Assembly (NCBI GenBank): GCA_023443925.1
Contig: JAEZSL010000189.1
Location: 1-26,140 of the forward strand
Origin: Bacillota bacterium
Lineage (GTDB): Bacteria > Bacillota_A > Clostridia > Lachnospirales > Lachnospiraceae
DNA length: 26,140 nucleotides
Direction of reading: 5' to 3'
Shown: in pieces, positions 4,965-26,140 of the stretch
How positions within the stretch are numbered: position 1 is the first letter of the stretch
How the letters are laid out: each line of letters opens with the position of its first letter
The notes under the pieces: generated by a model
The model's input: only the letters and a program-made list of their open reading frames with translations
Databases searched by the model: none
Told to the model about the DNA's origin: nothing
Made by a program: the position numbers and the translations under genes

Positions 4965-4981
4965 CGAAACGTAAGGAGAAG

Positions 4982-5119: not shown

Positions 5120-5123
5120 TAAT

Positions 5124-6563: not shown

Positions 6564-6567
6564 TTTT

Positions 6568-6665
6568 GAAAAACGAACCATTATAATAAAAAAAACAAAC
6601 CATCATAATAAAAAACGAACCATTACAATAAAAAAACAAACCATTACAATAAAAAAACAAACTTT
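6568..6665 (+). repeat. AT-rich minisatellite, about 21-bp period
   Basis: Roughly four and a half copies of a unit like AAAAAACAAACCATTACAAT, with C/G and T/C changes between copies, just after the kinase stop. It lies between the two-component genes and the binding-protein gene. A small ORF through it (KKTNHHNKKRTITIKK-type peptide) is only the repeat translated and overlaps the kinase end. Confidence 0.8.
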
Positions 6666-6777
6666 CCCGGCAGTCATTAAAAAAATCACAATTTATTCCA
6701 AATATAATGAATTGAATCTAAAGCCCATTATTATAAAATATTTACTGTAATAAATAAATTTTAAGGAGGAGCGTATT

Positions 6778-7815
6778 TTGAAAGTAATGAAAAAAGTATT
6801 TACACTTTTATTAGCCGGTATTCTGGCTATGTCACTATGGGGTTGTGGCACTTCATCAAAAGTAACCACCAACAATGAGGTTGCCAATGAAGTGAGTGAT
6901 GAGGGCAAGAGCGGTGAAAGTAAGGATATACTCGTAGTAGGTTATGCACAGGTAGGAGCAGAATCCGACTGGAGAACAGCGAATACGGTTTCTTTTCAGA
7001 GTACCTTTGTAGAAAAAAACGGTTATAAGCTTATATTCGATGATGCACAGCAAAAACAGGAAAATCAGATTAAAGCAATTCGTAATTTTATTCAACAGGA
7101 TGTTGACTACATAGTTTTAGCACCGGTTGTGGAAACCGGCTGGGAAACCGTACTTGGTGAAGCAAAAGAAGCCGGTATCCCGGTGATTCTTTCTGACAGA
7201 ATGATTGATGTATCCGATGATACGCTTTATACCTGCTGGGTAGGCGGTAACTTTATTAAAGAAGGCGAGGATGCGGTAGCCTGGCTGGCTGAATATTTAG
7301 AAAAAGAAGGCCGTAAAGATGAAGAAATTAATATTGTTACTTTACAGGGTACCATAGGTTCTTCCGCACAGGTTGGACGTACGGACGGCGTGGAAGGTAA
7401 ACTCTCCGAGCATCCTAACTGGAAGATGTTAGACAGACAGACCGGCGAATTTACACAGTCAAAAGGTCAGGAAGTTATGGAATCTTTCTTAAAATCCTAT
7501 AGTGATATCGATGTGGTTATAGCAGAAAATGATAATATGGCGTTTGGAGCCATTGATGCAATTAAAGCAGCCGGCAAAGTTCCGGGCAAAGATATTATCA
7601 TTGTTTCTTTTGATGCGGTTCGTGCTGCCTTTGAATCTATGATTGCAGGAGATATGAATGTTTCCGTAGAATGTAATCCGCTTCATGGACCTCGTGTTGC
7701 TGAAATCATTCAGAAATTAGAAGCAGGAGAAACCGTGGATAAAGTTCAATATGTAGATGAAGGCGTATTCCCGGCGGAAACAGCAGCAGATATAATTGAT
7801 TCCCGTGCTTATTAA
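6778..7815 (+). CDS. ytfQ: YtfQ-like sugar-binding lipoprotein of an ABC importer
   Basis: Extracellular solute receptor delivering sugar to the importer encoded downstream. The 345-aa protein has a lipoprotein signal peptide ending in lipobox LWGC with Cys23, then a periplasmic-binding-protein type 1 fold. It is close to E. coli YtfQ (galactofuranose receptor) in VVGYAQVGAESDWR near residue 58, QQKQENQIKAIRNF and LAPVVETGWE. The start is TTG, chosen because AAGGAGGA at 6763-6770 sits 7 nt before it; the ATG three codons later would be too far. It is followed not by a terminator but by a long hairpin before the ATPase gene, suggesting it is made in excess over the membrane parts. Galactofuranose as ligand is by homology only. 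Confidence 0.9.
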   Translation: MKVMKKVFTLLLAGILAMSLWGCGTSSKVTTNNEVANEVSDEGKSGESKDILVVGYAQVGAESDWRTANTVSFQSTFVEKNGYKLIFDDAQQKQENQIKAIRNFIQQDVDYIVLAPVVETGWETVLGEAKEAGIPVILSDRMIDVSDDTLYTCWVGGNFIKEGEDAVAWLAEYLEKEGRKDEEINIVTLQGTIGSSAQVGRTDGVEGKLSEHPNWKMLDRQTGEFTQSKGQEVMESFLKSYSDIDVVIAENDNMAFGAIDAIKAAGKVPGKDIIIVSFDAVRAAFESMIAGDMNVSVECNPLHGPRVAEIIQKLEAGETVDKVQYVDEGVFPAETAADIIDSRAY

Positions 7816-7831
7816 GTAAAAATGTAAAATA

Positions 7832-7913
7832 AGTTAAGGTGCCATAAACCTCCATAATATGATAGCGGAAAAGATAAGCAGGAAAATCATATTGGATTTA
7901 TGGCACCTTAACT
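7832..7913 (+). promoter_or_regulatory. long intercistronic hairpin between binding-protein and ATPase genes
   Basis: A perfect 17-bp inverted repeat AGTTAAGGTGCCATAAA (7832-7848) / TTTATGGCACCTTAACT (7897-7913). Inner AATATGAT/ATCATATT pairing extends the stem. There is no T run after it, so it is not an ordinary terminator. The position fits an mRNA-stabilising or processing element that raises the ratio of receptor to transporter. Confidence 0.8.
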
Positions 7914-7971
7914 ATTAGAATACAGCAGGATAAGAGTGTTAACTTGTCGATGGAATTAAGGAGGTGACCTG

Positions 7972-9555
7972 GTGGAAGATAAAGATAGAGTCATACTTTC
8001 CATGAAGAATATTTATAAACATTTTCCCGGTGTAACTGCTTTGTCAAATGTAGATTTTACTTTAAGGTCAGGTGAAATCCATGCTCTTATGGGTGAAAAC
8101 GGTGCGGGTAAATCTACTTTAATAAAGATTTTAACAGGAGTTGAGGAATTTGAGTCGGGAGAAATCCGTATAAAAGGGCAGGATCATCCTATTATTAACA
8201 AGTCTCCCACAGAGGCTTTAAAAAACGGAATCAGTACCGTGTACCAGGAGGTTAATTTGTGTTCAAACCTATCCGTTGCGGAAAATATTTTTATTGGACG
8301 GGAAATTATGAAACACGGAAGAATCGACTGGAGAACGATTCACACAAAGGCCAGAGAGATTCTTAAAAAATTAAACATTCATATTGATGTTACGAAACCG
8401 CTGGGCAATTACTCCGTCGCCCTGCAGCAAATGGTTGCCATTGCAAGAGCCGTTGATATCTCCGCAAAAGTATTGATACTGGATGAACCTACTTCAAGTC
8501 TTGATGAGATGGAAGTGGTTAAATTATTTGAGGTAATGAGAAAGTTAAGAGAGGAAGGCCTTGGAATTATATTTGTCACCCATTTCTTAGAGCAGGTTTA
8601 CGAGGTAAGTGATAAAATAACTGTTCTTCGAAATGGCGGTCTTGTTGGCGAATATGAAACAAAAGCACTTCCCAGAGTACAGCTGGTTGCGAAAATGTTA
8701 GGTAAAGACTTTGACGATCTTGCCGAGATTAAGAATGAAGAAGAATTACACAAAGATAAACAGAAGGAAGAAAAACTAATTGAAGCGACAGATTTAGGCC
8801 ACATAGGAACCATAAAACCTTTTGGAGTAACCATTCATAAAGGTGAAGTAATCGGGTTGTCCGGACTTTTAGGTTCAGGCAGGTCGGAGCTTGCACGTAC
8901 CCTTTATGGTGCGGATAAGCCAGACATTGGAGAACTTAAAATAAAGGGGAAAAAAGTCAGTTTTAGTGCGCCTATTGATGCAATGAAATCCGGTATGGCA
9001 TATTTACCGGAAAACAGAATTGCTGAGGGGATTATTTCAGACCTCTCTGTCCGGGAGAATATTATTATCGCTTTACAAGCCAGAAAAGGCATGTTCCATC
9101 TCCTGACCGGAAAAGAACAGGAAGAATTCACAGACCGGTTTATTGATATACTGCAGATAAAAACCAGTGACAGGGAAGTGCCGGTTAAGCAGTTAAGCGG
9201 GGGAAACCAGCAGAAGGTCATACTGGGCAGGTGGTTACTTACAAATCCGGATTTCATGATACTGGATGAACCCACCAGGGGAATTGATGTTGGCACAAAA
9301 ACAGAAATTCTCAAATTAGTGTTGCAATTTGCAAGGGACGGGAAATCGATTATGTTTATTTCATCCGAAATTGAAGAAATGCTCCGGGTTTGCAGCAGAA
9401 TGGCAGTCATGAAGGATGGTGAGAAAATAGGTGAATTAGAGGGGGATAAATTAAACCAGACTGAAATTATGAAAGCCATTGCCAGCGGAGAGAAGCAGAC
9501 GAAGAGAGAAGAAGCCGGAATGAATAATAAAAAGAAGGAAGAGGAGGACGAATAA
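7972..9555 (+). CDS. ytfR: YtfR-like sugar ABC importer ATPase, two nucleotide-binding domains
   Basis: Cytoplasmic ATPase driving sugar import with the two permeases that follow. The 527 aa contain two fused ABC domains, as in MglA/RbsA/YtfR. Domain 1 has Walker A GENGAGKST (41-49), Walker B VLILDEPTSSLD and an unusual signature YSVALQQ. Domain 2 has the degenerate P-loop GLLGSGRSE typical of the family, signature LSGGNQQKV and Walker B FMILDEPTRGID. The start is GTG, preceded by AAGGAGGTGA at 7958-7967, a near-perfect anti-16S match. The C-terminus is a charged KKKEEEDE tail. It overlaps nothing and stops 1 nt before the first permease. It is placed in the YtfR group by the receptor and by two distinct permease genes. 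Confidence 0.93.
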   Translation: MEDKDRVILSMKNIYKHFPGVTALSNVDFTLRSGEIHALMGENGAGKSTLIKILTGVEEFESGEIRIKGQDHPIINKSPTEALKNGISTVYQEVNLCSNLSVAENIFIGREIMKHGRIDWRTIHTKAREILKKLNIHIDVTKPLGNYSVALQQMVAIARAVDISAKVLILDEPTSSLDEMEVVKLFEVMRKLREEGLGIIFVTHFLEQVYEVSDKITVLRNGGLVGEYETKALPRVQLVAKMLGKDFDDLAEIKNEEELHKDKQKEEKLIEATDLGHIGTIKPFGVTIHKGEVIGLSGLLGSGRSELARTLYGADKPDIGELKIKGKKVSFSAPIDAMKSGMAYLPENRIAEGIISDLSVRENIIIALQARKGMFHLLTGKEQEEFTDRFIDILQIKTSDREVPVKQLSGGNQQKVILGRWLLTNPDFMILDEPTRGIDVGTKTEILKLVLQFARDGKSIMFISSEIEEMLRVCSRMAVMKDGEKIGELEGDKLNQTEIMKAIASGEKQTKREEAGMNNKKKEEEDE

Positions 9556-9556
9556 T

Positions 9557-10609
9557 ATGAATCATAAAAGTATATGGAAAAAAATAACTGGTTACAAACT
9601 TTTTTTACCTTTTCTTTGTCTTTTTATTGTTTTAGTAATCAATCTGATCAGGACGCCCTCTTTCTTTGAAATAACCATAAAGAACGGTGTACTGTACGGT
9701 TATATTATTGATATTATAAACCGTTCCAGCGAGTTAATTATACTGGCGGTGGGTATGACACTTGTGGTAGCAGCTTCAGGAGGTACCGATATCTCCGTAG
9801 GTGCGGTAAGTGCCTTATCCGGTGCGGTTTGTGTGTATGCACTGGTAGGGGTAGGCGGTGAAAATTACCGCATTCCCTATGCATTCTCTATAATCCTGGG
9901 TATTATGGCAGGCGGGCTGTGCGGTGCCTGGAACGGCTTTTTAGTAGCGAAACTAAAGATACAGCCTATGGTTGCGACTTTAATCTTATTTACCGCCGGA
10001 AGGGGCATCGCACAGGTACTGACACAAGGTTTTATACTATATGTAAGAAAAGAAGAATTTAAGTTTCTTGGGAATTTTATTCCGGGAGTACCTTTACCAA
10101 CGCCCATATTTATTGCAGCATTTCTGGTACTTTTAACCGTAATTATATTGAAAAAAACAGCTCTTGGGCTCTATATACAAACGGTAGGTATTAATGGCAG
10201 AGCGGCCAGATTAGTCGGACTGAATTCCTCTCTCATTCAGTTTCTTACCTATACCTTCTGTGGTCTTTGTGCGGGAATCTCCGGCATGATAATAACCTCC
10301 AGGGTGTATTCCAGCGATGCCAATAATGCGGGACTTAATCTGGAACTGGATGCAATTTTAGCCGTTGCAATCGGCGGCAACAGTCTGTCCGGAGGAAAAT
10401 TTTCCTTAATGGGCAGTGTAATCGGTGCAATTACCATACAGGCTTTAACCACTTCTCTTTATGCTATGAAAGTTACTGCCGACCAGCTTCCGGTTTACAA
10501 AGCTGTGGTTGTGGTAATCATAGTAGCCTTACAGTCAAAGGAATTAAAAAGAATCCTTTTCAGGGGAAGAATACAACAAAGTAAAAGAACATTGGAGAAA
10601 GGGGTATAG
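9557..10609 (+). CDS. ytfT: YtfT-like sugar ABC importer permease
   Basis: Integral-membrane permease of 350 aa, BPD_transp_2 family (RbsC/YtfT type), with about eight to ten hydrophobic segments. The family motif GGTDISVGAVSALSG lies near residues 75-89 and the conserved AIGGNSLSGGKFSLMGS near 271-287. It forms a heteromeric pore with the next permease and couples to the two-domain ATPase. The ATG begins 1 nt after the ATPase stop, and its ribosome site GAGGAGG lies inside that gene, so translation is probably coupled. Confidence 0.92.
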   Translation: MNHKSIWKKITGYKLFLPFLCLFIVLVINLIRTPSFFEITIKNGVLYGYIIDIINRSSELIILAVGMTLVVAASGGTDISVGAVSALSGAVCVYALVGVGGENYRIPYAFSIILGIMAGGLCGAWNGFLVAKLKIQPMVATLILFTAGRGIAQVLTQGFILYVRKEEFKFLGNFIPGVPLPTPIFIAAFLVLLTVIILKKTALGLYIQTVGINGRAARLVGLNSSLIQFLTYTFCGLCAGISGMIITSRVYSSDANNAGLNLELDAILAVAIGGNSLSGGKFSLMGSVIGAITIQALTTSLYAMKVTADQLPVYKAVVVVIIVALQSKELKRILFRGRIQQSKRTLEKGV

Positions 10610-10634
10610 GCATGATATCTGGTAGGTGCAAAAT

Positions 10635-11660
10635 ATGAGAAGAGCAAATAAAATCGATGCCAATGTTTTTCTTTTAGTTATTACCATTGTATTGTTTTTG
10701 GCTATGTACATAATTGGAATTATTGTATTCCATGATAAGAATTTCGGAAGACTTCAGGTGTTCCTGAACTTGTTTATCAGTAATGCCGGATTAATCGTGG
10801 CTGCCGCCGGCATGACGGCGGTGTTGATTACCGGAGGAATCGATATCTCCATCGGATCTGTTGTGGCGATGACTTGTATGCTCTTAGCCTGGATGATGGA
10901 GAAGAAGGGAATCGGTGCGGTACCTGCAATCATCATCGTATTATTTATTGGTATAGTATTCGGTTTTGTACAAGGGTGGCTTATATCCTATCTAAAGATA
11001 CAACCCTTTATTGTAACACTTGCCGGAATGTTCTTTGCAAGGGGAATGACGGCAGTTATCAGCACTGAGATGATAACGATAAAGAATGAGGCATTTTTAG
11101 CAATGGCGAATGGTAAGCTTTATTTACCTTTCGGAGGTGTTGTAAATAAGAAGGGGGTATTGGTACAGCCCTACATTTACCCCAGTGTTATTATAGCAAT
11201 CATAATATTGGTTATCATGTATTTACTGCTTAAGTATACTAAATTCGGCAGGAGTATCTATGCTGTGGGCGGCAATGAACAATCCGCACTGTTAATGGGC
11301 TTAAACGTAAGAAGAACTAAATTATTGGTTTATATTATGAATGGATTTCTTGCAGCACTTGCCGGATTTGTATTTTGTTTAAATACCAGCGGCGGCTTTG
11401 TGGAGCAGGCCAAAGGTTTTGAAATGGAAGCCATTGCTTCGGCGGTTATAGGAGGCACCTTACTGACAGGCGGTGTAGGTAATGTGATTGGAAGTTTATT
11501 TGGGGTAATGATTAAGGGAACCATTGAAACTTTTATAACCTTTCAGGGAACCTTATCTTCCTGGTGGACAAAAATAGTAATTGCCGCATTACTTTGCTTT
11601 TTTATTGTTTTGCAAAGTGTATTCCTTTCTGCCAGAAAGAAGCTGCAAAAGGGTGAATAA
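10635..11660 (+). CDS. yjfF: YjfF-like sugar ABC importer permease
   Basis: Second integral-membrane permease, 341 aa from this start, same BPD_transp_2 family as its neighbour but clearly different in sequence, as with E. coli YtfT and YjfF. Motifs GGIDISIGSVVAM and SAVIGGTLLTGGVGNVIGS mark the family. I chose ATG 10635, with a GGTAGG site 8 nt upstream. The GTG at 10626 lies three codons earlier but has no ribosome site at a useful distance. A strong terminator follows, ending the sugar-uptake unit. Confidence 0.9.
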   Translation: MRRANKIDANVFLLVITIVLFLAMYIIGIIVFHDKNFGRLQVFLNLFISNAGLIVAAAGMTAVLITGGIDISIGSVVAMTCMLLAWMMEKKGIGAVPAIIIVLFIGIVFGFVQGWLISYLKIQPFIVTLAGMFFARGMTAVISTEMITIKNEAFLAMANGKLYLPFGGVVNKKGVLVQPYIYPSVIIAIIILVIMYLLLKYTKFGRSIYAVGGNEQSALLMGLNVRRTKLLVYIMNGFLAALAGFVFCLNTSGGFVEQAKGFEMEAIASAVIGGTLLTGGVGNVIGSLFGVMIKGTIETFITFQGTLSSWWTKIVIAALLCFFIVLQSVFLSARKKLQKGE

Positions 11661-16761: not shown

Positions 16762-16807
16762 ATTGGAAAATATTCTTAAAAAGATTCAAAAATTCATACA
16801 AAACCTA

Positions 16808-16836
16808 TTGACAAAGAGATTTATTGACTGTATACT
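16808..16836 (+). promoter_or_regulatory. sigma-A promoter at the head of the nitrogenase-like/sulfur cluster
   Basis: TTGACA (16808-16813), a 17-bp spacer and TATACT (16831-16836). ATTGAC occurs twice here (from 16807 and from 16822), the second copy inside the spacer. The leader to the first DUF2292 gene is about 70 nt. Confidence 0.82.
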
Positions 16837-16913
16837 ATCAAAAAAGAGAAATACATAGAATTCATATTTGATTAGTAGGAATAGTTAAGCTTGTGTGTAA
16901 GAGGTGATTGTAG

Positions 16914-17081
16914 GTGGAGGATTGGAAGGGCAGTAATAATAAAAAGAATACGGTCAATGAAAAAGACATACAAAAGATTATTGAATTTATTGAGACCATA
17001 CAGTTTGGATCAATAATGCTTATCATTCAGGACGGAAAAATCGTCCAGATCGAAAAAAATGAAAAGGTAAGAATTAAGTAA
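16914..17081 (+). CDS. DUF2292 (YezD-like) small protein, copy 1
   Basis: 55-aa protein starting at GTG after a GAGGTG site (16901-16906). Core: IEFIETIQFGSIMLIIQDGK then IVQIEKNEKVRI. This matches the small DUF2292/YezD family, whose genes in Bacillus and others sit beside sulfate or sulfonate assimilation genes; the biochemical role is unknown. It is the first gene after the cluster promoter and is followed immediately by a terminator, so it can be expressed alone or in excess. A second copy lies at 18767, after the NifH-like gene. Confidence 0.85.
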   Translation: MEDWKGSNNKKNTVNEKDIQKIIEFIETIQFGSIMLIIQDGKIVQIEKNEKVRIK

Positions 17082-17092
17082 AACTAAGTTGA

Positions 17093-17104
17093 CTAGTTAA
17101 CTAG
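17093..17104. repeat. 12-bp perfect palindrome shared in outline with the region after the second DUF2292 gene
   Basis: CTAGTTAACTAG lies inside GTTGA-palindrome-AGGC. After the second DUF2292 gene the same frame occurs as GTTGA, CCAGTCCTCTGG (18946-18957), AGGC. The changes keep the outer pairing, so this may be a conserved RNA or DNA element. Confidence 0.6.
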
Positions 17105-17146
17105 AGGCTTTGGAAAGCACGAAAAGTGTATTCCAAAGCTTTTTTT
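17105..17146 (+). terminator. terminator after DUF2292 copy 1
   Basis: 9-bp stem GCTTTGGAA (17107-17115) / TTCCAAAGC (17131-17139) with an inner CAC/GTG pair, followed by T7. Confidence 0.88.
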
Positions 17147-17253
17147 GCTTATTAAAGCTATAACTTTTGATGTTTTGCTAGAGTAAGAGTTCATGTCTGA
17201 AAGGAGGCAGTGACATTAATATTAATTACCAGTTAAGAAGAAAGGAACAAAAA

Positions 17254-17694
17254 ATGGCAGCTTCGGAAGAAAAAATAAAAGAATACTTAAAAATGAACCA
17301 GACAATCATTTTAGCCACCGCAGATAAGGATGGAGTTCCGGATATACGGACACTTGGAGGATATGGTCTGTCGGATTACATAATATATTTTTCAACTTTA
17401 AAAACAAGCAATAAGGTTAAGCAGATTGAAAACAAGAAAGAAGTGGCTGTATTTATACAGCATGAAAATCAGTTTATCTCAAAATTTTTTAATGTTACCA
17501 TCTATGGAGAAGCAGTATTATTGCAAGAAGAATCGGAATATGACAACGGCAAAACCCTTATTTTATCCAGAAGGCCGTCTCTTAAAATTTGTAAGGATAC
17601 CCACAATATATATAAAGTAATACCTAAAAAATTAAAGGTGCTGGATTATAGCCAACAAAATCTTAAGGAGAGGATATCAATCCTTGAGTTTTAA
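17254..17694 (+). CDS. pyridoxamine-5'-phosphate-oxidase-like flavin split-barrel protein
   Basis: 146-aa cytoplasmic protein of the FMN-binding split-barrel (PNPOx-like) superfamily. The opening EEKIKEYLKMNQTIILATAD and the strand pattern PDIRTLGGYGLSDYIIYFST then SNKVKQIENKKEVAVFIQH are typical, and FNVTIYGEAVLL forms a later strand. Members bind FMN, F420 or haem, so this could be an electron carrier or an accessory redox enzyme for the reductase beside it; that is inference. The ATG has AAAGGA 7 nt upstream. A perfect AAAGGAGG also sits at 17200-17207 without an obvious partner start codon. No clear promoter is seen between it and the terminator upstream. Confidence 0.8.
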   Translation: MAASEEKIKEYLKMNQTIILATADKDGVPDIRTLGGYGLSDYIIYFSTLKTSNKVKQIENKKEVAVFIQHENQFISKFFNVTIYGEAVLLQEESEYDNGKTLILSRRPSLKICKDTHNIYKVIPKKLKVLDYSQQNLKERISILEF

Positions 17695-17831
17695 GACAGA
17701 ACCTTTCAAAACAGGCTGAAGAGGGGGAGCTCTAAGAATATTATCGAAGAATCAGTTCAAAGTTATCGTTAATAAAGGCTTTGTCACTAAAGCTTGAATA
17801 CAATCGTTTGACCTGAGAAGGAGAATAAAGC

Positions 17832-18707
17832 ATGGCAAAAATTAAGCAAATTGCAATCTATGGGAAAGGAGGCATCGGAAAGTCAACAACGACATCCAAC
17901 ATAAGTGCCGCATTATCAAAACTCGGATACAAAGTTATGCAGTTTGGCTGTGATCCAAAGAGTGATTCTACCAATACTTTAAGAGATGGGGAGTATATTC
18001 CCACGGTACTTGATACGTTGCGGGAAAAGAATACGGTAAAGGCAAGAGAGGTAATATTTGAAGGTTTTAACGGGATATACTGTGTGGAAGCCGGAGGCCC
18101 GGCACCCGGTGTGGGCTGTGCCGGCCGGGGAATTATTACGGCGGTCCAGTTATTTAAACAGCAGAATGTATTTGAAGACCTTGGTATCGATATTGTAATT
18201 TACGATGTGTTAGGCGATGTTGTCTGCGGCGGTTTTGCAGTACCGATCAGGGAAGGTATCGCAGAGCATGTATTTACAGTTTCCTCGGCTGACTTTATGA
18301 GTGTTTATGCTTCTAATAACTTATTTAAAGGGATACAAAGATATTCCAATAACGGCGGAGCACTACTGGGCGGCATTATAGCCAATTCCATTAATCAGCC
18401 CTATTCCAAAAATATAATAGACGATTTTGCAGAACGTACCCAAACACAAATAATGCAGTATGTTCCGCGTTCGGTCACGGTTACCCAAAGTGAGCTAAGG
18501 GGTAAAACCACCATCGAAGCAGCGCCTGATTCAACCCAGGCCGCCATCTATACCGAACTGGCCAAGAGAATTGCCGCTCATGAAAAGTCCACCGTACCGG
18601 CACCTTTAGATACGGCTGACCTGCGTAAATGGGCCTCCGATTGGGGAAATGAGCTTTTGGAGCTGGAAAGCGGAGTGGTAGTTGGCGGGCTCCAGGCAGG
18701 AATTTAA
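17832..18707 (+). CDS. NifH-like ATP-dependent reductase (Fe protein) of a nitrogenase-like complex
   Basis: Predicted homodimeric Fe-S ATPase that passes electrons to the NifD/NifK-like partner. The 291 aa contain P-loop [10 protein letters not shown] (11-20), switch region GCDPKSDST (39-47), and both ligands of the bridging [4Fe-4S] cluster: Cys96 in GVGCAGRG and Cys132 in DVVCGGF. Arg99 matches the arginine that is ADP-ribosylated in true NifH. AGAAGGAG ends 8 nt before the ATG. Similarity to NifH is high, but the rest of the cluster (no nifB, nifE or nifN, with sulfur genes nearby) argues for a nitrogenase-like enzyme rather than nitrogen fixation. A DUF2292 gene and a terminator follow, so it is transcribed apart from its partner subunits unless read-through occurs. 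Confidence 0.93.
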
Positions 18708-18766
18708 TAATATAAAGATAAAAAACAGTGTGAAAATAGAAGTGATAGGAAGAGGGGGATCATAGA

Positions 18767-18931
18767 ATGGACACGGACACATTTAAAAATCAGGTAGTAA
18801 ATCTGAAAAATCTAAAAGAGTTTGAATTGCTCATTAATTACCTGGCAGTACCCAGGTATGGATCTATTACTATTGTGATTCATGACGGGAAAGTGGTGCA
18901 GATCGAAAAAAATGAAAAATACAGGATTTAA
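18767..18931 (+). CDS. DUF2292 (YezD-like) small protein, copy 2
   Basis: 54-aa paralogue of the protein at 16914. The ends are nearly identical (YGSITIVIHDGKVVQIEKNE versus FGSIMLIIQDGKIVQIEKNE), and even the DNA of QIEKNEK is unchanged, while the N-terminal halves differ. The ATG follows AGAGGGGG. It lies 59 nt after the NifH-like gene and before a terminator, mirroring the arrangement of copy 1. It is too short for routine gene calling but supported by family match, ribosome site and paralogue. A link to sulfur metabolism is known for the family; the mechanism is not. Confidence 0.85.
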   Translation: MDTDTFKNQVVNLKNLKEFELLINYLAVPRYGSITIVIHDGKVVQIEKNEKYRI

Positions 18932-18959
18932 AAGCAGCAGGTTGACCAGTCCTCTGGAG

Positions 18960-19015
18960 GCCGGGTTGAAAACATAAGTAGTGCATAATACTTAAATTTC
19001 AGCCTGGCTTTTTTG
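18960..19015 (+). terminator. terminator after DUF2292 copy 2
   Basis: 12-bp stem with G-T pairs, GCCGGGTTGAAA (18960-18971) / TTTCAGCCTGGC (18997-19008), with inner AAGTA/TACTT pairing, then a T run. Confidence 0.82.
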
Positions 19016-19301
19016 TATCCAGCAGCAGGTAAATTATGTAAAAATTTGAAAGCCCAGAAAAAGCAATAGGATGGAGTTTATTATGGAAATTAAAAGATAA
19101 AAGAAATTTTATTATGAAAATAGAAAAGTTATAAAAAATATAATTGAAGTTATGTTAAATTAATTCAGACCGGAATGGCGGCAAAATGTTAAATTAATTC
19201 AGATCAGAATGGCGGAAAGTGGTATTTGTAATTTAAATGGCATGTAAAAAGTTAACAGAATAAAGTTGATAACGAAGTTGAATGTGAAGGGAGGATTTGT
19301 T
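19016..19301. other. intergenic region before the NifK-like gene, with a tandem direct repeat
   Basis: With the terminator above this makes a 370-base gap without a gene. It is AT-rich and holds the 30-bp repeat pair at 19152-19215. No convincing promoter hexamers were found, although transcription should restart here if the terminator works. Confidence 0.5.
19152..19215 (+). repeat. tandem 30-bp direct repeat, possible operator
   Basis: Copies at 19152-19181 and 19186-19215 match at 28 of 30 positions, with a 34-bp period. The unit begins ATGTTAAATTAATTCAGA and ends GAATGGCGG. It lies about 90 nt before the NifK-like start. Confidence 0.85.
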
Positions 19302-20636
19302 TTGGCAGAATTTATTGATCGTGCAAAATTTTCTTGTGCTCTTGGAGGAGCACTGACAACAATTGCGGGAATCCCGGGAGTAGTACCCATAGTTCATGCT
19401 TCAGGCGGCTGTGCGGCAGCCTTGTCGGGAACCTATAACCTGGCAGCAGGTTACCGGGGAACGGGTTACTGCGGCGGAGCCATGATACCGACTACAAATA
19501 TATCGGAAAATAACATCGTTTTCGGCGGGGAGGAACGGCTTACCGAACAAATAGAAAATTCTTTAGAAATTCTGGATGCCGACTTGTTTGTGGTCGTAAC
19601 CGGATGTCAGGTAGAAATCATAGGGGACGATGCGGTAAGCGTAGCCGGCAGATACCGGGACAAAAACGTAATCGGTGCCAGTACACCGGGGTTTTCCGGC
19701 AACACTTTTAAAGGTTATGATGCTGTCTTGAATACCATCATAAAAGAGGTAATAGAACTTTCTCCGGAAAAGGATGAAAATACGGTAAATCTGTTGGGTA
19801 CGGTACCGGGGCATGATGTATTTTACCGGGGTAATCTGGATGAAATAAAAAGGCTGCTGGGTTTAATCGGGGTGAAGACAGGTACTTTTTTTGGAACCGG
19901 TGAGAGTGTGGACTCCATCCGTCAGTATGGGAAAGCGTCCTTAAATATCCTGTTTTCCGAACAGGCCGGTCTAAAACCCTGCGAGACCTTTAAAGAACTG
20001 CATAACATTCCTTATATTACGGCGGATTTACCGGTTGGCCCCTCCGGCACGGAAGAATTTCTAATCCGGGTCGGCAATGAATTAAATATCAGTCCCTATA
20101 TTATTAATAATGTCATCGAAGAAGAAAAAAAGAATTATTATTCCTATCTGGAACGAATTGTTGATATTTATTCGGACATTGATTTTCAAAGATATGCCAT
20201 TGTTGTTGCAGACAGTTATTATGCCTTTGCTCTTACCAGGTTTTTAGCCAATGATTTAGGGTGGGTTCCTCATCTGACCTCCATAAATGATATTCGTACC
20301 GGGGAGGAGCAGCATGCTTATCTGGCTAAATTTAGTGGGTTGACCTCAGAAACCAGACCCAAAGTAATATTTGAGGAAAATGCCGGAGCTCTGGTAAAAG
20401 AAATCAGAAACAGCTGGCCTTATCCTTCGAATGAAAAATATTATGATGCCCTGGGTCCGGCCTTTGTAATAGGCAGCGGGATAGAGCGGAATCTGGCGGA
20501 AAAAATCGGTGCCGGCTTTTTAGCCGTAGCATTTCCGGTCAGCAACCGGGTGGTGTTAAATAAAGGATATGCTGGTTTTAAAGGCGGCCTGACACTGGTG
20601 GAAGATTTAATAACCCAGTTAGTTGCGGCACGGTAA
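19302..20636 (+). CDS. NifK-like subunit of a nitrogenase-like complex
   Basis: 444-aa member of the nitrogenase component-1 family, probable partner of the NifD-like protein that follows. Cys12 (KFSCALGG), Cys37 (ASGGCAA) and Cys102 (TGCQVEIIGDD) match the P-cluster ligand positions, and Cys57 is an extra nearby cysteine. The C-terminal FPVSNRVV then GYAGFKGGL is NifK/NifN-like, and no cofactor ligands are apparent, as expected for the beta-type chain. The start is TTG because AAGGGAGG (19287-19294) stands 7 nt before it; an upstream in-frame TTG at 19266 has no site. The gene precedes its NifD-like partner, the reverse of nifHDK. Distinguishing K-like from D-like relies on motif reading by eye. 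Confidence 0.87.
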   Translation: MAEFIDRAKFSCALGGALTTIAGIPGVVPIVHASGGCAAALSGTYNLAAGYRGTGYCGGAMIPTTNISENNIVFGGEERLTEQIENSLEILDADLFVVVTGCQVEIIGDDAVSVAGRYRDKNVIGASTPGFSGNTFKGYDAVLNTIIKEVIELSPEKDENTVNLLGTVPGHDVFYRGNLDEIKRLLGLIGVKTGTFFGTGESVDSIRQYGKASLNILFSEQAGLKPCETFKELHNIPYITADLPVGPSGTEEFLIRVGNELNISPYIINNVIEEEKKNYYSYLERIVDIYSDIDFQRYAIVVADSYYAFALTRFLANDLGWVPHLTSINDIRTGEEQHAYLAKFSGLTSETRPKVIFEENAGALVKEIRNSWPYPSNEKYYDALGPAFVIGSGIERNLAEKIGAGFLAVAFPVSNRVVLNKGYAGFKGGLTLVEDLITQLVAAR

Positions 20637-20655
20637 CAGAGAGAGGAGATCTGAA

Positions 20656-22194
20656 ATGGCAAATTCCAATTACGTTGAAAGTTTAACTTATCAGTTTTTA
20701 AAGGCGGCAGCACCGCCGACCCGTGAAGAAAGAATCGGTGCCTGTCATGCCTTCTGTGGTTCCTGCAGACAGCTAAAGGACGGTCTGCAAAGCGGCTGTG
20801 CACAGCTGCAGGACCGGAAGTTTTCCCAAAGCGGCGGCTGTCAGCTGACCCTGGCCGTTGGGATCGTAAGCAGTTTATCCAATGTGGTGATGATTATCCA
20901 TTCCCCTCTGGGGTGCTGCTCCAATTTCGTTGGCACCGGAGGCCTGCGTAAAACCATGAGGGCTTCAAAAGGCAAACCAGAGGAGGAGTTTGTATGGCTC
21001 CATACCAATCTGGATGAGCTGGATGTTGTACAGGGAGGTACGGATAAATTAAGAAAGGCAATTCTCTATGCCGAAAAGGAATACCATCCGGAAGCCATCA
21101 TCATTGCCAACGGCTGTGTACCCGGTATAATCGGTGATGATATTGATTCCCTGGTAAATACCCTGCAGGAAAGGGTTTCTGCCAGATTAGTACCGGTTCA
21201 CTGTGAAGGGTTTAAAAGTAAATTTGTAGCCTCCGGGTATGATTCTGCTTATCATGGAGTTTTACGGTATCTGCTGGAACCGGCGAAAAAGTATGAAAGC
21301 ATCATACCAAGGGAAGAGAGTGCTGCACTGGATCAGGTTAAAATAAGCCGCACCGTTAATATTTTTAATGTGGGCTCCAACAGTTACGGGGACGAAGCTG
21401 AATTATCTAGACTTGTCCGTGCTTTGGGATTGATACCAAAGGTTCTGCCTCTGCATGCATCTTTAGAGGAGCTGGCCCATATGGGGGAAGCGGCTTTAAA
21501 CGTCAGTATCTGTGCCCCCCACGATGATTATCTGCTGGGACATTTGAAAGAACGATTTGGAACGGATTACCTCATTGATACCCTGCCGATTGGTATCCGA
21601 AATACCAATCAGTGGATTCGTCTCATTGCCGGGCGTTTTCATCTGGAGGAGGAAGCGGAAAAACTCATACGTTTTGAAAATGCTCAGCTGCTGGAAGCAT
21701 TGGAACCCCTTAAGCATGTTTTAGAGGGAAAAAGCATTTTTGTTGGAGGGGGAGAAACCAGAATCTTAACAACTGCGGAATTTTTTGCTTCTCTTGGCAT
21801 GAATCTGGTAGGTGTCAAAGCCCATAATGTTGACCGGTTTGTAGAAAATATTCTGGATGACCTGGATAACCAGGAATTAATCATTGAAGTAGCGGCGGGA
21901 CAGCCGGCAGAGGAATTAAATCTTTTAAAAAGGTTAAAGCCGGATCTGTACATCGGCCATATGAATGCCAATGGCTGGGTTACAAAACTTGGGATACCAA
22001 ATCTTCCGTTATTCGGCCAGACCCTTAATTATATGGGATATTCCGGTGCCTTCGAACTGGCCAGAAAGGCGGTTAAAATATTAAAGAACACCAATTTTGT
22101 CAGGAATATCTCTGCTAATGTAAAACTGCCATTAAGCGAGGCCTGGTATGCAAGAGATCCAAAAGAAAACATTAAGGAGCTTGATATTTATTAA
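20656..22194 (+). CDS. NifD-like catalytic subunit of a nitrogenase-like complex
   Basis: 512-aa component-1 family protein, probable active-site chain. Cys62, Cys87/Cys88 and Cys154 (ANGCVPGIIGDD) fit the P-cluster ligands. Cys286 in LNVSICAPHDD aligns with the cofactor-ligating Cys275 of NifD. The His195 position is Tyr195 (ASGYDSAYHG), and the segment that carries His442 in NifD reads FGQTLNYMGYSG with no His. An added N-terminal set Cys30, Cys34, Cys37, Cys48 could bind another metal cluster. The ATG is preceded by AGAGGAG at about 8 nt. It follows the NifK-like gene by 19 nt. The pattern suggests a complex metal cofactor and a substrate other than N2. Alignments were made by eye. Confidence 0.88.
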   Translation: MANSNYVESLTYQFLKAAAPPTREERIGACHAFCGSCRQLKDGLQSGCAQLQDRKFSQSGGCQLTLAVGIVSSLSNVVMIIHSPLGCCSNFVGTGGLRKTMRASKGKPEEEFVWLHTNLDELDVVQGGTDKLRKAILYAEKEYHPEAIIIANGCVPGIIGDDIDSLVNTLQERVSARLVPVHCEGFKSKFVASGYDSAYHGVLRYLLEPAKKYESIIPREESAALDQVKISRTVNIFNVGSNSYGDEAELSRLVRALGLIPKVLPLHASLEELAHMGEAALNVSICAPHDDYLLGHLKERFGTDYLIDTLPIGIRNTNQWIRLIAGRFHLEEEAEKLIRFENAQLLEALEPLKHVLEGKSIFVGGGETRILTTAEFFASLGMNLVGVKAHNVDRFVENILDDLDNQELIIEVAAGQPAEELNLLKRLKPDLYIGHMNANGWVTKLGIPNLPLFGQTLNYMGYSGAFELARKAVKILKNTNFVRNISANVKLPLSEAWYARDPKENIKELDIY

Positions 22195-22342
22195 CGGGAT
22201 TATTGATTTTTGCAGCCGGTGGTTCCGGATGCTATAAAAACAGGGAGCTCCAGTTGCTGTTTTAAGCGGATGGTAGCTTGTATTATCCAGAACCAGTAAC
22301 AGGAATTTTAAGAAGCGAATCAATTACGGAAAAGAGGGAAAG

Positions 22343-23311
22343 ATGAGCAGAATCGTTGAGAATTTAACAGAATTAATCGGTGACACACCCATATTAAAGC
22401 CACTGGCATTTTCAAAACTGGCTAAAATCAGGGAATCCGAACTGCTTTTTAAATTGGAGTATTTTAATCCTTTGGGCAGTGTAAAAGACCGGATTGCTTA
22501 TTCTATGATAAACGACGCGGAGGAAAAGGGTTTGTTAAGCAAAGACAGTGTCCTTATTGAACCCTCCAGCGGTAATACCGGGGTAGGCCTGGCTTTTGTA
22601 GCAGCTGCCAAAGGATATAGACTGATTATAACCATGCCGGATTCCATGAGTATCGAAAGACGCAGTCTGTTAACGGCACTTGGTGCGGAGCTGGTTTTGA
22701 CACCGGGGAGCCTTGGAATGAAGGGAGCCATACGAAAAGCGGAAGAACTAAATATACAAGTACCGAATAGTCTGATTTTACAGCAGTTTAATAATGGTGC
22801 GAATCCGGAGATACATAGGAAAACCACCGGGCCGGAGATCTGGGAGGCTACCGGTGGGAAAATTGATATTCTGGTGGCGGGAGTTGGAACCGGCGGAACC
22901 ATAACCGGAGCCGGAAGTTACTTAAAAGAGAGAAAAAAGGAGCTTCAGGTTATAGCGGTGGAACCCACAGCTTCCCCGGTACTCTCAGGGGGTAATCCGG
23001 GACCTCACAAAATTCAGGGAATCGGCGCGGGCTTTGTTCCTAAAGTATTAAAACTGGATGTGGTAGATGAAATATACAAAGTGCGAAACGAAGAAGCCAT
23101 AGATACCTCCAGAGTTCTGGCACGGGAGGAAGGCTTACTGGTGGGTATCTCTTCGGGAGCAGCCGCTTTTGCAGCCGCTAAGATAGCAAACCGGACGGAA
23201 AACAGGAACAAAGTAATACTGGCAATCTTGCCGGATACGGGGGAACGTTATTTATCCACGGAATTATTTAATTCGGTGCCGGAAGAAAAAAGCAGATTGT
23301 GGTATAGGTGA
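22343..23311 (+). CDS. cysK: cysteine synthase (O-acetylserine sulfhydrylase) family PLP enzyme
   Basis: 322-aa cytoplasmic enzyme joining sulfide to an activated serine to give cysteine. PLP-binding Lys48 lies in NPLGSVKDR, the substrate loop SSGNTG at 75-80, and the phosphate-binding GTGGTITG near 184-191; [13 protein letters not shown] at the N-terminus is classic for CysK. The ATG follows AGAGGG. It sits 148 nt after the NifD-like gene in the same direction, and its stop is 9 nt before the NifX-like gene. In this setting it would trap the sulfide or thiol released by the neighbouring reductase; that is inference. A cystathionine-forming or homoserine-acceptor activity cannot be excluded by sequence alone. 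Confidence 0.93.
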
Positions 23312-23320
23312 GGGAAGTTT

Positions 23321-23680
23321 ATGAAATATCGTATTGCCATCGGAAGCAGGGACAGAATTAATGTAACAGAGCATTTCGGACAGTGCAGCCGGTTTTATAT
23401 TATTGAGATAGACCAGGAGAATGACCGGATAATTCCGGTGGAAGAAAGAGAAACCGGAAGCAATAACCAATGCGGAAATCATCAGGAGGAACGGATCCGG
23501 GAAAAGATTGAGGCCTTAATGGATTGCCGGATTATTCTGGTGAAGCAAATCGGAGGTCAGTCCGAGAAACTGTTAAACCATTATGGTATCATCTCTCTGC
23601 AATATAATGGGCTGATAGAAGATGCCCTTAAGAAAATAATAAAATTTTATAAAAAGCAATTACTTGTACGGGAGGAGTAA
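23321..23680 (+). CDS. NifX/NafY-like iron-molybdenum-cofactor-binding domain protein
   Basis: 119-aa single-domain protein of the dinitrogenase iron-molybdenum cofactor biosynthesis family (as in NifX, NafY and the NifB C-terminus). The pattern RIAIGSRDRINVTEHFGQCSRFYI, with His18-Phe19-Gly20, marks the family; a second Cys-containing stretch near residue 51 (NNQCGNHQEE) is His/Cys-rich. Such proteins carry or guard Fe-S cofactor precursors, which fits a reductase with a complex cofactor. It is spaced 9 nt after cysK, and the ribosome site of the next gene overlaps its end. Confidence 0.85.
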   Translation: MKYRIAIGSRDRINVTEHFGQCSRFYIIEIDQENDRIIPVEERETGSNNQCGNHQEERIREKIEALMDCRIILVKQIGGQSEKLLNHYGIISLQYNGLIEDALKKIIKFYKKQLLVREE

Positions 23681-23684
23681 TTTT

Positions 23685-24671
23685 ATGGCCAAAGACTTAA
23701 AGGATACACATAAAACAGGTTTTGGGTTTGACTACCGGTCCGCCATTCCTGTTATTGCATTAACCATAACCTTGTTGACGGATATCTGCATACCCAACAG
23801 TCAGGAAGCAAAATACCGGGAACTTACCAATTTTCAAAGCATACTGTTTTTCTCCCTGGCAGTATCCGTAGTTTTATTGGTGCTGGCTTTATTCCGGGAA
23901 AACTTCCGAGAGAAATATTCGCATAAAGGCTGGTTTGTGGGAGGATTTATACTGTTTTTTAATGTGCTGAACATAGTAACGGTTAAATTTCTTTTATTGC
24001 CTCAGATTTATTTTCCAAGCTTAAACCGTGTTCTGAATGTTTATATAGAAGACCGATTGTTTTTACTGACTTGTCTTGGAAGTTCTTTCAGTCTGCTGGT
24101 TGAGGGCTTGGTTTTTGGAACCGCAGCCGGTGTGTTTACGGGAATACTGGTTGGCTGGAGCTTAAACTGGAATTATTGGATTTATCCGATTATCCGGATT
24201 CTTGGGCCTATACCTTCTTCTACCTGGATACCACTTGCATTGGTACTGTTCCCTACACCACGCTGGGCGGCTGTGTTTTTGATTGCTTTTGGTGTATGGT
24301 TCCAGATTACCATATTGACCAGTTCGGGAATTCAGAGCGTGAAGAAAACTTATTTTGAAGTTTCCTCAACACTTGGTGCCACCAATCTTCAGAATCTGTT
24401 TCGTATTGCCATACCGGATGCTCTGCCTTCTATTTTTCTGGGTTTTTTTAATGCCACCTGCAGCTCCTTTGTTGCGTTAATGGCGGCAGAAATGCTGGGG
24501 GTGAAAGCCGGAATCGGGTGGTATATCAACTGGCAGAAAGAAATGATATCCTATCCCAATGTATATGCAGCTTTAATTCTCATAGCCTTATTCTGCTATC
24601 TCTTTATTACCTTGCAGTTTAAGGTACGGGACAGACTGCTGGGCTGGCAGAAGGGAGTTATCAAATGGTAA
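23685..24671 (+). CDS. SsuC/TauC-like ABC importer permease with N-terminal extension
   Basis: Integral-membrane permease of the nitrate/sulfonate/taurine family, 328 aa against the usual ~260. The core from about residue 85 has the standard fold and the EAA loop EVSSTLGATNLQNLFRIAIP, which contacts the ATPase. The first ~80 residues add hydrophobic segments (about 21-41, 51-70) not usual for SsuC. ATG 23685 is chosen from GGGAGGAG at 23670-23677, inside the end of the NifX-like gene. It overlaps the ATPase gene by 7 nt, indicating coupled translation. Likely cargo is an organosulfur compound, by family and context. Confidence 0.88.
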   Translation: MAKDLKDTHKTGFGFDYRSAIPVIALTITLLTDICIPNSQEAKYRELTNFQSILFFSLAVSVVLLVLALFRENFREKYSHKGWFVGGFILFFNVLNIVTVKFLLLPQIYFPSLNRVLNVYIEDRLFLLTCLGSSFSLLVEGLVFGTAAGVFTGILVGWSLNWNYWIYPIIRILGPIPSSTWIPLALVLFPTPRWAAVFLIAFGVWFQITILTSSGIQSVKKTYFEVSSTLGATNLQNLFRIAIPDALPSIFLGFFNATCSSFVALMAAEMLGVKAGIGWYINWQKEMISYPNVYAALILIALFCYLFITLQFKVRDRLLGWQKGVIKW

Positions 24672-25489
24672 TTACAGAACTTGCAAAACCACAGGAAGGG
24701 ATCGGCAGTATTTCGGCCAAAGATATAAGCAAAGAGTTTATACGTCCGGATGGCGGAAAAACGGTTGCAATCAATCATCTGAAGGCAGATATTAAAGCAG
24801 GGGAATTCGTCTGTTTGATCGGACCCTCCGGATGCGGTAAATCCACTTTATTAAGGCTGATTGCCGGCCTTGACCGGCCTGATTCCGGTGAGCTCAGCCT
24901 GGATGGCCAGCTTATTAAAGGACCGGGCTATGAAAGAGGTCTGGTATTTCAGGATCCAACTTTATTTCCGTGGCTGAATATTTATGACAATGTTGCCTAT
25001 GGTTTAAAAATCCGGCATGTCTACAATAAGCATAAGCAGGATGTGAATGACTTCCTTGGACTGGTAGGCCTTGAAGGCTTTGAAAAATCCTATCCGCACC
25101 AACTTTCCGGCGGAATGGCACAAAGAGCCAGTTTGGCCAGAGCACTGGTAAATAATCCGAAGGTGCTTTTACTGGATGAACCTTTAGGAGCCCTGGATGC
25201 CTTTACAAGAATGAATATGCAGGATGAGATTTTACGTATCTGGAAAGAGAGAGGTACTACCATGCTTATGGTAACCCATGACGTGGATGAGGCTATTTAT
25301 TTAAGCGACCGTATCTTTGTCATGACGCCAAGACCCGCAAAGATCGAAGAAATTATAGAGGTAACCATAGGCCGGGGTGAAAATCAGGGCAGGCAAAGAG
25401 ACAGCAGCGATTTTTTAAACCTGCGTTCTAAGATATTGCAGATACTGGATTTTACAGGTAAATCCCAGCCTCCGGAATATTATTTGTAG
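24665..25489 (+). CDS. SsuB/TauB-like ABC importer ATPase
   Basis: 274-aa cytoplasmic ATPase for the permease it overlaps. Walker A GPSGCGKST (53-61), Q loop VFQDPTLFPW, signature LSGGMAQRASLARAL, Walker B VLLLDEPLGALDA and switch His in VTHDVDEA are all intact. FQDPTLFPWLN and the FVMTPRPAKIEEI tail are typical of the nitrate/sulfonate/taurine ATPases. The ATG lies in the last codons of the permease gene. A 304-nt leader with repeats separates it from the receptor gene. Confidence 0.92.
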   Translation: MVITELAKPQEGIGSISAKDISKEFIRPDGGKTVAINHLKADIKAGEFVCLIGPSGCGKSTLLRLIAGLDRPDSGELSLDGQLIKGPGYERGLVFQDPTLFPWLNIYDNVAYGLKIRHVYNKHKQDVNDFLGLVGLEGFEKSYPHQLSGGMAQRASLARALVNNPKVLLLDEPLGALDAFTRMNMQDEILRIWKERGTTMLMVTHDVDEAIYLSDRIFVMTPRPAKIEEIIEVTIGRGENQGRQRDSSDFLNLRSKILQILDFTGKSQPPEYYL

Positions 25490-25793
25490 GAGTGGGTTAT
25501 TAAAGAACCGGACTTAGTTAAACGGCAAGTAAAGATTTATAAAAAATGAAATGAAAAATGAAATGATGAGCGGGATATCAAAATAAAGACATAGCATTGA
25601 ACTGTGAAAATAGAAGATATTACATTGAAGTGTGAAATAAAAGGCATTTTCACATTTTATTTGGGCGGTGCTGCAAGCAGGCTTGTGGTTTGCAATGGTT
25701 TTAATATGAATTATGAAGTTCATAATTCTAACAGAAAATTGAAAGAAGCTGATATTAACAGATCAAAAAAACGAAAAAGGGAAGGATTATGCT
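25490..25793 (+). promoter_or_regulatory. leader region of the substrate-binding lipoprotein gene with repeats
   Basis: No gene is seen in this stretch. It holds a direct repeat CATTGAAnTGTGAAA at 25595-25609 and 25623-25637, a small hairpin TGTGAAA (25631-25637) / TTTCACA (25648-25654), and an inverted repeat 25708-25728 made of perfect 10-bp arms GAATTATGAA / TTCATAATTC with a 1-bp centre. The last looks like a repressor operator. Promoter hexamers are not clear. Confidence 0.5.
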
Positions 25794-26140
25794 ATGAAAA
25801 AATTAAGAAAATATATTTCATTACTAAGTATTATTACCGTAATGGCTATAATTTTGGCTGCCTGCGGTTCTAAGGCAGAAGAGAGTGCTGGAAAACAGGC
25901 TGTTACGGAGGATACCAAAGCTGCGGAGGCTATCACTTCAACAACCGGTGAGACCAAGGAGACTGCTGAGAACAAAACTGCGGAACAGACAACAGAGGAA
26001 GCTGCTGATTCTTCAGAAACGGCTGAAGCAAAGGCGGTAAGTGCGGAGGATAAAAAACCAATTAAAATTTTATACGGTGCCGGGTTGTGCGGCATACCGC
26101 TGCATCTTGCCAAGCAGCTTCAGTTTTATGAAGCGGAAGG
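25794..26140 (+). CDS. SsuA/NMT1-like substrate-binding lipoprotein, 3' end beyond the window
   Basis: Start of an extracellular solute receptor for the ABC importer encoded just upstream; 115 codons are present and the frame runs off the window. A lipoprotein signal ends in LAAC with Cys24. A linker of about 60 residues rich in Glu, Thr and Ala follows (ESAGKQAVTEDTKAAEAITS and on), then the receptor domain begins: IKILYGAGLCGIPLHLAKQL then FYEAEG, a typical NMT1/SsuA opening. GGGAAGG precedes the ATG. The ligand is unknown; sulfonates or other organosulfur compounds fit the neighbours. Confidence 0.85.
   Translation, partial: MKKLRKYISLLSIITVMAIILAACGSKAEESAGKQAVTEDTKAAEAITSTTGETKETAENKTAEQTTEEAADSSETAEAKAVSAEDKKPIKILYGAGLCGIPLHLAKQLQFYEAE

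Follow-up and report, generated by a model that had tools for sequence, protein, structure and literature searches.

A nitrogenase-like reductase of a Lachnospiraceae bacterium, encoded in a conserved K-D-cysK cassette, as a candidate C–S bond reductase

What does an enzyme of the nitrogenase superfamily do when its genes stand beside those for a cysteine synthase and an SsuABC-like importer? The question is raised by positions 16,808 to 26,140 of contig JAEZSL010000189.1 (assembly GCA_023443925.1) from a bacterium of the family Lachnospiraceae; the whole stretch of 26,140 nucleotides is referred to below as the window. An initial interpretation of this DNA, made from its letters alone (the sequence-only reading), had listed genes for NifH-, NifK-, NifD- and NifX-like proteins, two DUF2292 proteins, CysK, a flavin split-barrel protein and a sulfonate-type ABC importer, all in one direction, and had proposed that the reductase cleaves C–S bonds for sulfur supply. 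Profile searches of the window proteins recovered all of these genes on the forward strand with clear family matches (Table 1). From the evidence assembled here, we consider it reasonably probable that this nitrogenase-like reductase releases sulfide from an imported organosulfur compound for use by CysK.

The three subunits of the enzyme find their closest solved structures in methylthio-alkane reductase (Mar). The H subunit scores 475.6 bits against the Mar entry 9fmg_D and 274.6 bits against 1cp2, the NifH of C. pasteurianum; the naming of these entries follows PMC12552129 in part. The K subunit scores 249.7 bits against MarK (9d9u_C; 36% identity), with the next best match at 75 bits, and the D subunit 206.8 bits against MarD (35% identity), with the best non-Mar match at 113.7 bits; the subunit genes in the window are accordingly in the order H-K-D. 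For the phylogeny, we used 80 loci of named genomes, kept out of 108 qualifying, together with nif loci from some of the same genomes; their 286 D/K-like frames, restricted to 380-600 residues, freed of exact duplicates and supplemented with MarD and MarK, yielded 259 sequences (one method and one alignment, with FastTree local support). The window D protein falls within an 81-member clade (support 0.999) comprised of groups of 5, 29, and 47 members (U5, W29, and W47), and belongs to W47. The sister of this clade is a 16-member Mar clade, with NifD and NifE elsewhere in the tree. Support for the two sister clades is 0.999 on both sides for D, and 1.0 on the Mar side and 0.884 on the window side for K, such that the window D and K proteins lie beside, and not within, the MarD and MarK clades. 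Neither is placed in the NifD, NifE, or NifK clades, for which those genes from the same genomes served as the reference, Vnf and Anf not being singled out. The sequence-only reading had assigned the subunits to the group-IV nitrogenase-like enzymes and proposed a phylogeny as a check; both the structure matches and the tree uphold that assignment, with the proteins sister to Mar and outside true NifDK.

Several genomes help to place the clade further. The W29 sister group includes Paenibacillus sequences, which suggests that the window clade may belong to what is called group IV-A; no Endomicrobium name was present among the 360 proteins listed, few rows of which carry readable names. In four genomes, viz., G007, G008, G016 (recorded as an isolate), and G021 (the other three being bins), the window-type pair accounts for the only PF00148 proteins, so that, as far as the assemblies show, it has no accompanying nitrogenase there. 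At the other extreme, G012, G015, and G028 have 27 to 32 PF00148 matches per genome, several distinct group-IV pairs among them.

The residues predicted to hold the metal clusters are retained in the window enzyme and its subclade. Window D has the P-cluster cysteines Cys62, Cys87, and Cys154 and the active-site-cluster ligands Cys286 and His435, and window K retains its three P-cluster cysteines; in W47, the P-cluster cysteines and the equivalents of Cys270 and His429 are found in all 47 D proteins. A residue survey of the 120 best of 408 relatives at E 1e-30, set against 120 listed Mar proteins, likewise found Cys270, His429, Cys91, and Cys158 in 120 of 120, and the Cys66 equivalent in 117 with three gaps. 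The lining of the pocket is a different matter. The positions of NifD V70, Q191, and H195 are occupied by Gly/Ile, Val, and Tyr in window-type D proteins, and the FeMo-co His (H442 equivalent) of the NifD ligand motif HSYDYSG aligns with Phe, so that the residues on which nitrogenase relies around S2B are missing along with its cofactor histidine. MarD Trp195, Phe199, and Arg428 correspond to Val191, Tyr195, and Gly434 in window D, with Val, Tyr, and Gly in 120 of 120 listed relatives and Trp, Phe, and Arg in 120 of 120 listed Mar proteins; Arg428, which lies beside His429 and has been proposed as a hallmark of Mar (PMC12552129), is thus absent from all the listed relatives along with the two aromatic residues. 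Because the cluster ligands are kept while the pocket residues differ, the scaffold is predicted to carry nitrogenase-type clusters in a pocket that would be neither that of Nif nor that of Mar. An AlphaFold model of the D subunit had a mean pLDDT of 64.8 and hence was not used.

The gene neighborhoods tie the enzyme to cysteine synthesis. A neighborhood survey, which the sequence-only reading had also proposed, reveals a recurrent K-D-cysK cassette: among the 47 W47 loci, 42 have K directly ahead of D, and 42 have cysK as the first known gene downstream of D, at a distance of up to 2.5 kb. The latter arrangement is seen in 5 of 28 W29 loci and in none of the 14 Mar-clade loci, although a cysK gene can be found no farther than 7 kb from D in 17 and 7 of them, respectively. 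The Mar clade shows the reverse order, D-K, in 13 of 14 loci; a metY gene is located within 7 kb of D in half of these 14 loci (7), as against 4 of 47 in W47. Thus, the suspected link to cysK proves to be conserved, and the layout does differ from that of the Mar operon, as had been suggested; it is, however, not peculiar to the window but typical of a widespread clade. Within the same distance of D, W47 loci further encode NifB-like (13/47), NifX-like (20/47), H (15/47), and PNPOx-like (10/47) proteins, while uroD and corrinoid genes occur in 0 of 47. Of 19 searched genomes with such enzymes, 18 have DUF2292, and among 14 controls Bacillus subtilis alone carries it; we found no literature joining DUF2292 to nitrogenase-like enzymes, and nothing on the function of DUF2292/YezD among the matches listed in the literature search. 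A DUF4418 gene with an FtsX-like permease gene, mostly accompanied by an ATPase gene, is present in L001, L004, L005, L015, L018, L019, L022, L026, and L062, in many cases downstream of the cluster. The U5 group (L049, L061, L070, L078, and L079) forms a small third clade with the D-K order in four of five loci, which keeps Trp195 and has Gly instead of Arg at position 428; three of the five loci have a uroD-type gene no farther than 7 kb away, and three have corrinoid genes at such a distance.

The genomes that carry the cassette bear on its product. We surveyed 21 W47 genomes, each with a W47 D (the D of L028, identical to that of L027, had been left out of the tree). The sulfite reductase domain PF01077 was not found in 8 of the 21, namely in Herbinix hemicellulosilytica and Butyrivibrio sp. 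YAB3001, both recorded as isolates, and in six bins; of the 14 known genomes serving as controls, 11 were positive in the same search. ATP-sulfurylase was detected in 0 of 14 W47 genomes (controls 5/14), and 7 of 14 have a PAPS-reductase domain (controls 14/14); in five genomes none of the three was detected. A NifB-like match was obtained in 21 of 21 W47 genomes, above the family cut-off in 12, and in 7 of 14 controls, above the cut-off in two. Given that the release of sulfite would necessitate a sulfite reductase, the adjoining cysK together with the genomes without a detected PF01077 favors sulfide as the likely product.

The two DUF2292 genes of the window are each followed by a motif of the form RGYUGA-stem-loop-stem-RAGRCY and then by a strong terminator-like hairpin (fold of 17095-17150: −22.6 kcal/mol, z −5.34; fold of 18945-19025: −29.9 kcal/mol, z −4.44; 0 of 200 shuffles equal in either case). 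In 17 genomes with such enzymes, the bare pattern gave 44 matches, as against 9 for the reversed pattern; 38 of the 44 have the full four-pair stem, five fall within predicted frames, and six lack a T-run hairpin afterwards. Among the genes located behind these sites are nifB, H, K, D, metY, and marD genes with 73% and 72% identity to R. rubrum MarD, as well as genes for permeases and binding proteins; several further sites precede unidentified or unrelated frames. At E ≤ 0.5, a covariance model (R1) applied to 1.36 Mb recovered 30 sites, 29 of them on the D-gene strand (p=6e-8, the sites not all being independent); 13 of them share their core with the training set, and the other 17 are new, all on the D-gene strand, preceding W47 and W29 K genes, nifB, importer, and other genes. 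Covariation was assessed on 45 sites, leaving out near-duplicates and the long-loop site L028:305. In this set 99.7% of cells pair, five of the seven pairs vary on both sides, and two-sided changes number 50 cells against 12.8 in shuffles, with slid pairings dropping to 22-57%, though collecting sites by pattern and model itself favors a paired inner stem. The outer pair lies outside the model, with its purine fixed by the pattern; here G stands opposite C in 13 of 13 cases and opposite U in 14 of 32 (p=0.0004).

The terminator stem starts with the 3′ GRCY of this hairpin, so the two structures compete, and an antitermination switch would be the natural reading of the overlap. Rfam 15 returned no match in the window at the gathering score, and at E up to 5 the region 16780-19320 gave only Spd-sr07 (E 4.2) on the opposite strand. 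A survey of 150 genomes from the family to which G001 belongs showed no enrichment of the bare pattern (31 matches versus 44 reversed), which ties the element to these loci as opposed to a general distribution; nine of the 31 have the full four-pair stem with G-U allowed, and six of these nine are in genomes with PF00148. An R1 search of 12 genomes gave no match at E ≤ 0.001, with 150 candidates scored per genome, and is uninformative. Readings of the element as a K-turn, ANTAR, or BglG-type signal were weighed by eye only, and not adopted. One full-stem copy of the motif (L162; G018:C5:85005-85026) lies 133 nt before a frame that by eye resembles metK, with no T-run hairpin.

The binding protein of the importer is SsuA-like by family and fold, as judged from a complete homolog (L001:15119-16249), the window copy being partial; the homolog reaches 112 bits against the SsuA model TIGR01728, whose cut-off is 163.5, and all the scored parts of this SsuA-like importer are below their family cut-offs. 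A Foldseek search with the binding protein placed the HMP synthase Thi5 first and SsuA at rank 12, and is relied upon for the fold class only. Cys68, Cys140, Cys248, and Cys249 are conserved in 13 of 14 aligned binding proteins, the part encoded at 25794-26140 of the window including the first; with four such cysteines, the protein does not look like an ordinary sulfonate binder. Hence, of the earlier designation as a sulfonate-type importer, the SsuA-like family and fold stand, while the conserved cysteines are atypical of what that name implies. Other W47 loci encode different SsuA-like binding proteins (SBP13 and SBP18), of which 12 examined have one or two cysteines and one has four.

Taken together, gene content, phylogeny, ligand conservation, synteny, and the RNA element with its covariation are established computationally; the system is real, conserved, and coherent, and it probably functions as a C–S reductase. 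We propose a two-component reductase that is driven by ATP and belongs, as the sister of methylthio-alkane reductase, to the nitrogenase superfamily; judging from the conserved ligands, electrons would pass from NifH-like dimers via the P-cluster to an [Fe8S9C] cluster on Cys286 and His435 of D. The SsuABC-like importer would bring in a small organosulfur compound, whose C–S bond the enzyme would cut reductively to yield inorganic sulfide, as opposed to sulfite or methanethiol; CysK would then combine the sulfide with O-acetylserine to form cysteine, as the K-D-cysK cassette and the genomes without a detected sulfite reductase suggest. The cluster might be supplied by the NifX-like protein and a NifB-like maturase encoded nearby or elsewhere: no radical-SAM (NifB/MarB-like) gene was seen among the frames of the window, and in its relatives a NifB-like gene lies beside the cluster or elsewhere in the genome. 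The PNPOx-H unit and the K-D-cysK-nifX-importer unit are probably each gated by the RNA hairpin in competition with the terminator.

A number of observations weigh against the release of sulfide for CysK. The importer has a sulfonate/oxyanion-binding fold, which points to sulfonates; PF01077 is present in 13 of the 21 W47 genomes, where sulfite is a possible product, and six of the eight negative genomes are metagenome bins, which are incomplete. Three W47 loci lack cysK within 7 kb (L020, L032, and L037, the last of which ends 232 bases past D), in L038 and L043 it is near D yet not next to it, and half of the Mar-clade loci also have it in the vicinity, though never as the next gene. CysK might moreover meet a general cysteine demand or take other nucleophiles. 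Finally, group IV-A enzymes are credited with N2 fixation in PMC9147875 and PMC11257099.

Among the alternatives, an isethionate-reductase-like (Isr-like) enzyme, cleaving an imported sulfonate to sulfite that a sulfite reductase would convert to sulfide for CysK, seems unlikely. PMC11423573 provides the precedent in the IsrBHDK system of Rhodobacter capsulatus, in which nitrogenase-like NflHDK proteins work with an SsuCAB-type importer in sulfur assimilation; the SsuA-like binding protein and the W47 genomes with PF01077 also favor it. However, IsrD is reported there to have one of the three P-cluster cysteines and no equivalent of Cys275, IsrB to be closest to BciD, and the product to be sulfite, whereas window-type D keeps all three cysteines and Cys286, and the relatives have a NifB-like maturase, scoring 272 bits in L022 against a cut-off of 344; the eight genomes without detected PF01077 and the four-cysteine binding proteins also speak against this alternative.

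Quite unlikely, in our estimate, is a Mar-type activity, in which methanethiol would be freed from methylthio compounds and the CysK-like protein would make S-methylcysteine or serve another pool. The resemblance to MarBHDK of Rhodospirillum rubrum, of group IV-C, is considerable: the clades are sisters, the H subunits are 75% identical, both have the P-cluster cysteines and the Cys/His ligands of the [Fe8S9C] cluster, the relatives have a NifB-like maturase, the setting is one of sulfur metabolism, and cysK is near the Mar-clade genes in several loci too. Against this, D and K share 35-36% identity with their Mar counterparts, the pocket triad is replaced in every listed relative, and the window-type loci have the K-D order, cysK beside D, and an importer; metY, whose product would use methanethiol, is rarely close to W47 D genes whereas cysK generally follows them, and in some genomes, that of L027 among them, a Mar-clade pair is present in addition.

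Fixation of N2 in vivo by a group IV-A nitrogenase, as claimed for Endomicrobium proavitum, is in our view very unlikely for the window enzyme. The group IV-A NfaDK/NflDK proteins (E. proavitum, Paenibacillus riograndensis, and Heliophilum) are probably of the same broad clade, given the Paenibacillus sequences in W29. In PMC9147875, Mar is assigned to group IV-C and Endomicrobium NfaDK to IV-A, with 15N2 incorporation reported for the latter, the riograndensis proteins nearby, and the H proteins of group IV-A systems grouping with MarH; PMC11257099 names it a functional nitrogenase. The window H protein itself exceeds the NCBIfam nifH cut-off (402.2 versus 394.35 bits). Set against these points are the replaced NifD positions, including Phe for the FeMo-co His, the cysK cassette particular to W47, the importer, and an RNA element common to metY, all of which point to sulfur, and the presence of separate nif D, K, and E genes in the close relative G001 (its L088 and L108 group with Nif). 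A link between group IV-A and sulfur genes has a precedent: PMC10418091 describes MarHDK-like genes of group IV-A in the vicinity of type I mlp clusters and includes CysK in a figure legend, so that the association itself is already in print; unlike that setting, which involves corrinoid methyltransferases, the W47 loci are free of nearby uroD and corrinoid genes.

Action of the importer and reductase on an organometal(loid) or soft-metal thiolate, with sulfur incidental, is highly improbable: the permease and ATPase score best against the SaoP and SaoA models, which are linked to organometal biochemistry, yet below cut-off, and the four conserved cysteines also speak for it, but cysK follows D in most W47 loci and the binding proteins of other W47 loci mostly have one or two cysteines.

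By the features tested, the enzyme belongs to none of Mar, Isr, and Nif. Returning to sulfide release for CysK, a more specific form of it is possible though we hold it with some doubt: a third kind of C–S reductase in the nitrogenase superfamily, an [Fe8S9C]/P-cluster enzyme that would convert a thiol or thione to sulfide for CysK, giving cysteine without a sulfite reductase, within a sulfur regulon switched by an antitermination-type hairpin absent from Rfam and common to Mar, metY, and importer operons. That the same cluster might reduce a sulfonate all the way to sulfide is a bolder version that we regard as most improbable. We found no description of the RNA element or of the K-D-cysK cassette in the literature searched, within which few subscription journals were accessible.

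The features of the locus are collected in Table 1. The promoter-like site should be read as a consensus match only, since a scan gave 27 such sites versus 20.0 (sd 4.3) in shuffles of the region. An imperfect dyad, ATTCATATTTGATTAGTAGGAAT, lies at 16860-16882, upstream of the first DUF2292 gene, with a copy in L001 and close variants in L004 and L005; a search of G001 and G003 for a regulon of this 23-base motif gave 7 matches versus 7 for the reversed pattern, and showed none. Elsewhere in the window, positions 3351-11660 contain frames that by eye resemble a response regulator, a sensor kinase, and a sugar-type ABC importer, apparently unrelated to the system described here.

Table 1. Genes and RNA signals of the nitrogenase-like reductase locus, in window coordinates.
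Feature	Position	Strand	Evidence and remarks
Promoter-like site TTGACA-17-TATACT	16808..16836	+	11/12 consensus matches; upstream of first DUF2292 gene
DUF2292 (YezD-like) small protein 1, 55 aa	16914..17081	+	PF10055 59.5 bits, E 2.4e-16
RNA element 1 (RGYUGA-stem-loop-stem-RAGRCY)	17086..17110	+	Model R1 35.3 bits, E 0.0021 in 1.36 Mb; copy in training set
Terminator-like hairpin and T-run, starting within RNA element 1	17104..17146	+	Fold of 17095-17150
PNPOx-like flavin split-barrel protein, 146 aa	17254..17694	+	PF01243, E 2.7e-11
NifH/MarH-like reductase component	17832..18707	+	PF00142 333 bits; 75% identity to R. rubrum MarH
DUF2292 small protein 2, 54 aa	18767..18931	+	PF10055 56.1 bits, E 2.8e-15
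RNA element 2	18939..18963	+	Model R1 29.5 bits, E 0.027; copy in training set
Terminator-like hairpin and T-run upstream of K gene	18958..19014	+	Fold of 18945-19025
NifK/MarK-like catalytic subunit	19302..20636	+	PF00148 235 bits; likely TTG start; frame open from 19266
NifD/MarD-like catalytic subunit, 512 aa	20656..22194	+	PF00148 243 bits
cysK, O-acetylserine sulfhydrylase	22343..23311	+	TIGR01139 445 bits, cut-off 351; best PDB matches are cysteine synthases
NifX-like cofactor carrier	23321..23680	+	PF02579, E 4.5e-17; NifX model 53 bits, below cut-off of 112
ABC importer permease	23688..24671	+	PF00528; SaoP 87 bits, NtrB 81 bits, both far below cut-off
ABC importer ATPase	24665..25489	+	PF00005; SaoA 246 bits, cut-off 360
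Lipoprotein substrate-binding protein	25794..26140	+	115 aa inside window; 3′ part beyond window end

The common RNA element makes control by sulfur as opposed to nitrogen directly testable. With its cluster ligands kept in a changed pocket, the clade offers a natural test of how the reaction is set by the protein and not by the cluster, as asked in PMC12552129. As the window H protein exceeds the curated nifH cut-off, surveys of N2 fixation that use nifH as a marker would miscount such organisms. If this interpretation is correct, nitrogenase-type clusters would be desulfurizing catalysts that yield sulfide, providing a route to cysteine for anaerobes unable to reduce sulfite.

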